From Naasia sp. SYSU D00057 (GTDB lineage: Bacteria > Actinomycetota > Actinomycetes > Actinomycetales > Microbacteriaceae): DNA of 64,000 nucleotides. The notes below the pieces were generated by a model. The model had not been told where the DNA came from and did no database searches. It worked only from the letters and a program-made list of their open reading frames with translations. Positions 39,821 to 55,256 of the stretch are shown here, one piece after another (the stretch's first letter is position 1; the number at the start of each line of letters is the position of its first letter). Both the position numbers and the translations under genes were made by a program. The stretch covers positions 1,302,001-1,366,000 of the forward strand of contig NZ_JAFMSZ010000001.1 in the NCBI RefSeq assembly GCF_017916505.1, written 5' to 3'.

Positions 39821-39905
39821 GTAACGATTTCAGGAGATTCGGTCCCGCCGCAGAGTCAGCATGCCGATCGCTGGCGTTCGCGGCCGGATCTCCTTGATTC
39901 GTTAC
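39821..39905. repeat. Palindromic repeat family B, copy 1 (85 bp)
   Basis: It begins GTAACGATTTCAGGAGAT and ends with the inverted ATCTCCTTGATTCGTTAC, with GCATGC-C-GATCG in the core. A homologous 86-bp copy is at 55142-55227. It is intergenic here, ending about 20 bp from the flavoprotein stop. Confidence 0.75.
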
Positions 39906-53852: not shown

Positions 53853-53985
53853 AGGCACATCCTTCGGAGGGGCGGCACAAACACGACGATCCTAGCGATC
53901 GGGCTTCCCGGCCCCGTTCACAGGTTTCCCCGGGTGACGTCACGGAACCCGCTCAGCGTGCCGCCGGTTACGCTCGGATCGACCC

Positions 53986-54090
53986 CAAGGGGAGTACTTC
54001 ACCAACGGCGGACCGTCACTACGGACACGGTCCCGGCCCGCCGGCCCTCGCGGCGAAGGAGACCTTGACTCGCAAGATCGAGCCAAGGAG
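53986..54090 (+). promoter_or_regulatory. yybP-ykoY (manganese) riboswitch with translational switch
   Basis: The aptamer opens CAAGGGGAGTACTTC (53986) and closes GAAGGAGACCTTG (to 54067), the yybP-ykoY consensus ends. Strand CCTTG (54063-54067) can pair with CAAGG at 53986-53990 (P1). It can also form a hairpin with CAAGG at 54084-54088, which contains the terC ribosome-binding site; that stem is extended by CTCG/CGAG. Metal binding should favour P1 and free the site. The family assignment is from consensus memory. Confidence 0.8.
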
Positions 54091-54094
54091 ATCC

Positions 54095-55219
54095 GTGAAC
54101 GTCAGCGCCCTCGTCTGGATCGTGACCCTCGCCGTCACCGTCGTCTTCTTCGTGTGGGAGTTCTTCAGCCACGTCCGGCGCCCGCACGAGCCGAGCATCG
54201 GGGAGTCGGCCCGCTGGTCGGCCTTCTACATCGGCCTCGCCCTCCTGTTCGGGGTCGGCGTGGGCGTCGTCAGCGGGTGGGAGTACGGCGGCCAGTACTT
54301 CGCCGGCTACCTCACCGAGAAGGCCCTGTCCGTCGACAACCTGTTCGTCTTCCTCCTCGTGATGACCTCGTTCGCGGTGCCGAAGGCGTACCAGCAGAAG
54401 GTGCTGCTCATCGGCATCGTGATCGCGCTGATCATGCGCGGCGCGTTCATCGCCGTGGGCGCCGCGCTGATCGCCAACTTCTCGTGGATCTTCTACCTGT
54501 TCGGCGCCCTGCTGCTGGTGCTCGCCGCCCAGCAGCTGCGGGGCTCGCACGGCGGGAACGCCGCCGACAACGCGGTCGTCCGCCTCGCCCGGCGGGTGCT
54601 CCCGGTCACCGACGAGTACCACGGCGACCGCCTCACCGTCCGGCTGGACGGGCGTCGCCTCGTGACGCCGATGTTCCTCACCGTGGTCGCGGTCGGCGTC
54701 ATCGACCTCGTGTTCGCTGTCGATTCCATCCCCGCGATCTACGGGCTCACCGAGGAGGCGTACCTCGTCTTCACCGCGAACGCGTTCGCGCTGATGGGGC
54801 TCCGCCAGCTGTACTTCCTGCTCGGCGGACTCATGGAGCGGCTCGTGTTCCTCTCGCAGGGGCTCGCCGTGATCCTCGGCTTCATCGGGGTGAAGCTGCT
54901 GCTGCACGCGCTGCACGTCAACGAGGTGCCCTTCATCAACGGCGGCGAGCCGCTGCTCTGGGTGCCGGAGATCCCGACCTGGCTGTCGCTCGTCGTCATC
55001 GCGGCGACGGTGGCCGTGGCGACCGTCGCGAGCCTCGCCGTCACCCGGGGACGCTCCTCGGGGGTCTCCGGGGTGTCCGGGCACTCTGCGGCCGCGCACG
55101 CCGACGCCGCGGTCGCCGACGGCCGGCACTCTGACGTGGCGGTAACGAATCAAGGAGGAACGGCCGCGTCGGACACCGCGCATGCGGATCGGGGCCGATC
55201 GGACGCCGAAACTCCTTGA
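54095..55219 (+). CDS. TerC-family membrane protein, likely Mn2+ exporter
   Basis: 374 aa from GTG 54095, which has AAGGAG 4 bp upstream; TTG 54065 lies in the riboswitch. It has about nine membrane helices. TerC signatures are YLTEKALSVDNLFVFLLVM and VVAVGVIDLVFAVDSIPAIYG, with acidic metal-binding residues in the membrane. The riboswitch upstream supports a role in manganese export. The last 26 codons, from VTNQGG to AETP, are encoded by a family B repeat, so the native C-terminus has probably been replaced. Confidence 0.92.
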   Translation: MNVSALVWIVTLAVTVVFFVWEFFSHVRRPHEPSIGESARWSAFYIGLALLFGVGVGVVSGWEYGGQYFAGYLTEKALSVDNLFVFLLVMTSFAVPKAYQQKVLLIGIVIALIMRGAFIAVGAALIANFSWIFYLFGALLLVLAAQQLRGSHGGNAADNAVVRLARRVLPVTDEYHGDRLTVRLDGRRLVTPMFLTVVAVGVIDLVFAVDSIPAIYGLTEEAYLVFTANAFALMGLRQLYFLLGGLMERLVFLSQGLAVILGFIGVKLLLHALHVNEVPFINGGEPLLWVPEIPTWLSLVVIAATVAVATVASLAVTRGRSSGVSGVSGHSAAAHADAAVADGRHSDVAVTNQGGTAASDTAHADRGRSDAETP

Positions 55220-55227
55220 TTCGTCAC
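55142..55227. repeat. Palindromic repeat family B, copy 2 (86 bp), inside the terC 3' end
   Basis: It starts GTAACGAATCAAGGAG and ends CTCCTTGATTCGTCAC, with core GCATGC-G-GATCG. It matches the 85-bp copy at 39821-39905 in length, ends and core. The terC stop codon lies inside it. Confidence 0.78.
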
Positions 55228-55256
55228 CCCCGGCTCCGGCTCCGGCCGGCCGGGAC

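Follow-up and report, generated by a model that had tools for sequence, protein, structure and literature searches.

The closest described relatives of the leader analysed here are those of the Escherichia coli alx and mntP genes, which are described as Mn riboswitches that switch expression on, in the case of mntP at translation initiation (PMC9603457). In the L. lactis riboswitch, the helix reported to act as the switch is P1.1, the equivalent of P1 (PMC11087558). Among actinobacteria, an RF00080 leader preceding the Corynebacterium glutamicum terC gene cg2157 was detected as a 5'-UTR by RNA-seq (PMC3890552). We analysed a 64,000-nucleotide stretch of the Naasia sp. SYSU D00057 genome (the window, whose numbering is used throughout), in which the terC gene is likewise preceded by a leader of the yybP-ykoY type; cg2157 was compared by description. 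The window leader shares with alx and mntP the signature bases GGGGAGTA, GTCA and GAGACC, a closing P1 helix and an exporter gene downstream, and all three are matched by one covariance model. It differs from them in being shorter (88 nt) and GC-rich, and it places a single simple Shine-Dalgarno (SD) hairpin right after the aptamer, whereas alx has a long leader. We consider it quite probable that this RNA is a Mn2+ ON riboswitch that controls terC translation. Its elements are as follows.

53969 to 53974, forward strand: -10-like element TACGCT; TAnnnT is conserved upstream of relatives' aptamers.
53983 to 54070, forward strand: predicted Mn2+ (yybP-ykoY type) riboswitch aptamer, from the held-out covariance model.
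53986 to 53990, forward strand: P1 5' strand CAAGG, from the sequence and the model match.
53991 to 53996, forward strand: L1 loop GGAGTA, invariant in the 56-leader alignment, which was itself selected by GGGGAGTA.
53997 to 54000, forward strand: P2 5' strand CTTC (CTCC in most relatives).
54006 to 54043, forward strand: P3 arm, pairing 54006-54011 with 54038-54043, 54013-54015 with 54034-54036 and, in the inner helix, 54023-54026 with 54030-54033; present in the P1-enforced fold, the unforced fold of the RNA to 54078 and the model alignment.
54014 to 54018, forward strand: CGTCA of loop L3, invariant in the 56 alignment rows.
54044 to 54054, forward strand: short stem GCC/GGC (54044-54046 with 54052-54054), from the model alignment.
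54055 to 54058, forward strand: P2 3' strand GAAG, pairing with 53997-54000 in the model alignment and the P1-enforced fold.
54063 to 54067, forward strand: switch strand CCTTG, either the P1 3' strand or the anti-SD strand.
54063 to 54088, forward strand: predicted ligand-free SD hairpin (-9.9 kcal/mol; its pairs have a mean probability of 0.997 when folded unconstrained).
54084 to 54088, forward strand: second CAAGG, within CCAAGGAG.
54085 to 54090, forward strand: Shine-Dalgarno sequence AAGGAG, 4 nt before GTG 54095.
54095 to 55219, forward strand: terC, start GTG (54095-54097), a TerC family membrane protein of 374 aa.

The initial annotation assigned the leader to the yybP-ykoY class and named the Rfam model RF00080 as a means of checking this. 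The Rfam search itself came back empty: RF00080 matched nowhere in the window at its gathering cut-off, did not match the leader at E ≤ 10 on short stretches, gave nothing at the terC leader position in a whole-genome search and matched none of 20 relatives' loci, while at E ≤ 10 it matched in 9 of 14 control genomes, over the cut-off in two. The refuting outcome named by the initial annotation, lack of a covariance-model match, did occur with RF00080. This miss is uninformative, because at gathering RF00080 likewise fails to match the alx and mntP loci of E. coli. RF00080 was thus dropped as the deciding test, and since it could not decide, a covariance model was built from 56 aligned actinobacterial terC-homologue leaders with the window left out; the 56 rows were obtained from 76 non-window leaders by dropping near duplicates by eye, and of their 29 pairs 22 show double changes. 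This model does match the window: it places the aptamer at 53983-54070 and scores 58.5 bits there (E 1.7e-14, E-values being rough), and the second-best score anywhere in the 64 kb is 16.7 bits. It also matches alx (54.5 bits) and mntP (25.3 bits), neither of which was in training. When the model was checked on 75 of 77 motif-bearing loci and 15 of 26 motif-less ones, all 75 of the former and none of the 15 latter were matched.

The helices of the aptamer covary. In an alignment of 59 matches, which was fitted to the model and which includes one or more of the training sequences again (L143 is the same as L037), double changes occur in 27 of 29 pairs with 95.3% of cells paired, the covariation score is 0.642 as compared to 0.223 when shuffled, and P1 alone has double changes in 4 of its 5 pairs with 98.6% of cells paired. 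The window leader carries the signature loop bases GGGGAGTA, CGTCA.TACG and GAGAC, the first of which was also the selection criterion of the 56-leader alignment. Two of its pairs are marked as non-standard in the model alignment, and its P2 helix reads CTTC/GAAG; the usual form among relatives is CTCC paired with GGAG or GGAA, and the change is compensatory in the middle pair. The sequence, its class homology and its covarying helices are thus established computationally; the held-out match, the conserved covarying helices and the homology to alx and mntP bear out the class assignment and support the view that the leader is a further member of an already known Mn2+ riboswitch class, with Mn2+ as its likely ligand.

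The aptamer appears to lie at the very start of its transcript. Of 135 distinct upstream sequences, 118 have TAnnnT between 16 and 2 nt upstream of the aptamer, as compared to 0 to 3 of 135 in each of six control bins of the same size, a count that ignores relatedness among the 135 sequences. In the window this element is TACGCT at 53969-53974, and the transcript therefore probably begins just before P1, near 53981 and a few bases 5' of the helix.

The two CAAGG copies, the CCTTG strand, AAGGAG and the GTG were all read from the sequence at the positions first reported for them. The initial annotation had proposed that CCTTG either closes P1 or forms a five-base-pair hairpin with 54084-54088 over the SD; the hairpin is present, but it extends to 9 bp with one A/C mismatch (CCTTG-A-CTCG with CGAG-C-CAAGG, 54063-54072 with 54079-54088). 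When the RNA ends at 54078, before the SD arm exists, its minimum-energy fold is the full aptamer with P1, and no constraint is needed to obtain it. Once the RNA extends to the start codon, the SD hairpin is favoured by 7.3 kcal/mol, or by 7.8 kcal/mol with 30 more bases, and on a third stretch the free fold leads by 10.6 kcal/mol. Mean accessibility of the six SD bases rises from 0.33 in the free fold to 0.69 when P1 is enforced, and barring the switch strand from pairing gives 0.71 in the short fold. Both pairings of CCTTG are therefore supported in silico, and the ON logic first proposed, in which the SD is masked in the free state and released by P1, agrees with these folds and with the phylum-wide comparison described below. 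Like the class homology, the folding order and the competition between the two pairings are established by computation.

Several folding results are less favourable. With about 33 nt of terC added, enforcing the aptamer raises SD accessibility from 0.33 to only 0.44, which counts against our explanation; in the same extended test on 110 leaders, the gain exceeds 0.2 in 53 and there is a loss of over 0.2 in 9. The unconstrained fold also contains a 7-bp competitor, GGACCGT/ACGGTCC, which likewise counts against our explanation. The folding energy of the whole leader is unremarkable (z = -0.52), and single-leader folding energy was set aside as uninformative evidence. A hairpin of equal stability arose in 358 of 5000 spacer shuffles (1 in a smaller test of 60), and the same SD pairing probability was reached in 73 of 500 shuffles. 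By folding energy alone the hairpin does not exceed chance; by comparison between leaders it does. We also considered that the P2 region might mask the start codon (CTTCAC/GTGAA in the unconstrained fold); since most relatives carry CTCC there, this masking is regarded as unproven.

The start of terC had been placed at GTG 54095 rather than TTG 54065, and comparison with relatives upholds this choice. A GTG, TTG or ATG stands at the position of GTG 54095 in 90 of 90 distinct sequences, window included, although local alignment by itself favours start-type residues at that position; the set derives from the 94 of 107 TerC-aligned loci that align from residue 1, the other 13 aligning from later residues only. 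TTG 54065, on the other hand, lies inside the P1 3' strand.

These observations suggest a mechanism in which the leader (about 53981-54094) would act as a yybP-ykoY class Mn2+ riboswitch and switch terC translation on. The aptamer would fold first, while the RNA is emerging from the polymerase, and be closed by P1 (CAAGG/CCTTG). If Mn2+ is bound, CCTTG would be held in P1, leaving the SD AAGGAG free for synthesis of the exporter; in the absence of Mn2+, CGAGCCAAGG, which is transcribed later, would capture CCTTG from P1 and bury the SD in the 9-bp hairpin. The free-fold advantage of 7.3-10.6 kcal/mol is greater than the repayment expected from Mn2+ binding at equilibrium, and in this respect it counts against the proposal. 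However, E. coli alx folded to its start codon shows a larger comparable gap of 12.5 kcal/mol, so the gap in the window is no argument against switching. Taken together, the folding order and the energy gap point to a decision made during transcription: Mn2+ would stabilise P1 before the SD arm invades, making the choice a kinetic one and not one of equilibrium.

The same energy gap could also be read as a sign that the aptamer is real but decaying, a copy with short helices that is mostly OFF since its SD hairpin is far stabler than P1. At 88 nt the window aptamer is the shortest of 77 leaders, the 7-bp hairpin competes with it, and in a sister genome, the genus mate G004, the aptamer has been left without its gene. 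There, between serA and ackA, an aptamer scoring 63.7 bits is kept (loci L004/L205; L004 1504-1590, minus strand) and terC is missing from just after CTTGACTCGC; the sole TerC match of this genome (9.4e-103) has the strength of the second, distant copy. The loop of the orphan aptamer reads CGCCA, whereas CGTCA is invariant in the 56 alignment rows. In the window leader, by contrast, the conserved loop bases are retained, the CTTC/GAAG change is compensatory and the aptamer folds without constraint while the SD arm is still to be made, and alx, which is reported to be Mn-responsive, carries the larger gap. We therefore regard decay as unlikely, and the combined gene loss and loop decay in G004 are consistent with a regulatory function of the aptamer. 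Of the 15 genus loci compared, only the window locus and the G004 locus lie in the serA-terC-ackA neighbourhood.

Separately, a dispersed palindromic repeat that looks REP- or MITE-like occupies window positions 55141-55228, with arms GTRACGAATCAAGGAG located 70 bp apart and a further arm at 39890-39905. It extends over the 3' end of terC, with the terC stop inside its right arm, and as RNA it has a z of -3.77. Eleven exact arms occur in the genome itself, six of them as three exact pairs, and none in 8 other genomes of the genus.

If the leader is a working switch, its signal might still be something other than Mn2+, such as pH, Ca2+ or another metal. When 198 genomes sampled from the order and 246 from the phylum were searched, the model matched at E values up to 0.001 in 144 and 56 of them, respectively, and the genome of the window has one additional strong match, before its second terC. 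A TerC homologue lies downstream of 122 of 136 aptamers. Ten of 12 non-TerC downstream ORFs were scanned against Pfam, yielding four P-type cation ATPases, two Na/Ca exchangers, one M50 peptidase and three without a match, and the exchangers and ATPases would be compatible with another ion. Moreover, the alx and mntP reporters are reported to respond to alkaline pH as well (PMC9603457). The same study describes both reporters as Mn-responsive (PMC9603457), and a single model matches alx, mntP and the window; in addition, two weaker matches in genus mates (40.9 and 35.4 bits) lie upstream of ORFs that look MntP-like on reading their sequence. The gene downstream of the window aptamer is itself of a metal-exporter type (Pfam TerC, PF03741, 166.2 bits), from which we infer that its product may export Mn2+. 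A signal other than Mn2+ is accordingly judged quite unlikely. Three aptamers (L065 1150-1247 minus, L150 1501-1599 and L158 1501-1599 minus) precede ORFs of 244-292 aa that have no Pfam match and of which two begin alike by eye; these ORFs are candidate new members of the Mn regulon.

Control of transcription, through a terminator or Rho, would be the other way in which such an aptamer could act. It finds a precedent in L. lactis, where the 3' segment of P1.1 is reported to pass to a terminator hairpin (PMC11087558). In the window, however, no T run follows the hairpin, no transcription terminator was seen in the leader sequence, and it is the SD, 4 nt upstream of the start codon, that serves as the alternative strand. 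We hold transcriptional control to be very unlikely, and translation is the step that the Mn2+ switch would most plausibly govern.

Masking of the SD by P1 was then compared across the phylum, in the 122 of 136 matches that remained once 2 without a start in the data and 12 with a start more than 75 nt away were left out; removal of identical platforms gave 115 leaders, of which 113 entered the short-fold test and 110 the fold extended by about 33 nt. Within the 20 nt before the start, 34 of the 115 unique leaders carry the exact reverse complement of their own P1 3' 5-mer, as compared to a mean of 10.1 and a maximum of 19 when SD regions were permuted among leaders 2000 times; counts on the 115 leaders ignore relatedness. 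Only 63 of the 115 exceed their own non-cognate mean, yet none of 1000 permutations reaches the observed mean. CAAGG precedes the start in 4 of 49 leaders of the CCTTG class and in none of 63 from six other tabulated classes, and it is also absent from the last 3 leaders, read by eye. GGAGG, in turn, precedes it in 20 of 25 CCTCC leaders, 6 of 14 CCTTC leaders and single leaders of three other classes, as expected of a common SD. The comparison suggests that across the phylum the P1 3' strand often masks the SD, but that it rarely does so in the window's own P1 class. That the CAAGG repeat and its hairpin are fortuitous is scarcely credible: CAAGG or CCTTG does occur 99 times in the window and the leader's folding z-score is ordinary, but the held-out E value, the conserved promoter spacing and the matching of SD region to P1 across the phylum all speak against chance.

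Among the closest relatives the arrangement is different. The CCTTGG class (40 leaders), which is nearest to the window, has a predicted mean SD pairing of 0.05 with P1 and 0.52 with the P2 5' strand. The P2 5' strand was nevertheless not adopted as the usual anti-SD of this class, as it comes from folding predictions and is missing in 3 of 4 genus mates. The terC1 leaders of genus mates (L201-L204) resemble the window in having a homologous aptamer and the terC1 gene, but they differ in their P2 5' strand (CTCC) and SD context (TTGGAG or CTGGAG), and pairing of the SD with P1 is predicted in none of the four, whereas the window terC1 gives 0.66 and 0.67. For terC2 of the genus, short folds predict the P1 mode in 6 of 7 cases and full-length folds in 4 of 7; in the window's own genome, the leader of terC2 is predicted to follow the same switching logic. 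From these folds, the mode of the window would be common in the phylum but not in the terC1 leaders of its nearest relatives.

Streptomyces terC leaders that carry an aptamer share the three-strand logic of the window. In these (L118, L120, L122-L126, L128 and L130-L132) the P1 3' strand CCTCCGG stands against an SD arm CCGGAGG, although the hairpin is longer and the P1 sequence is another one. In four further loci from Streptomyces and Actinacidiphila (L116, L119, L121 and L127), a CCTCCGGCAG...GCCGGAGG hairpin over the terC SD is retained, and the model search found no aptamer match before it.

As a possible counterpart of the P2 5' strand, GGAGTAC occurs at the SD in 12 of 95 cases, against a background of 3.7% of GGAG, and the P1 type is found in 16 of 68 CTCC leaders as compared to 33 of 45 others, relatedness being ignored. 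These patterns and the fold predictions lead us to a tentative idea, which we think somewhat less likely to be right than wrong, that actinobacterial Mn riboswitches may use two interchangeable anti-SD strands, P1 3' (CCTTG, CCTCCG or CCTTCG) and P2 5' (ACTCC), and that lineages may swap the masker; in the window lineage, terC1 might then have gone over to P1 from P2 or some other mode, P2 changing meanwhile from CTCC/GGAG to CTTC/GAAG. A literature search of a partial library found no paper on actinobacterial SD masking by P1, a weak negative.

For the family, our results indicate that a broad actinobacterial branch of this riboswitch class escapes RF00080 when the supplied cut-off is applied. 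For a GC-rich actinobacterium, the terC leader would provide a compact Mn2+ ON switch that can be tested. In this branch the P1 5' strand, the P1 3' strand and the SD arm appear to vary together, and they may thereby offer a test of how an expression platform evolves under a fixed aptamer.
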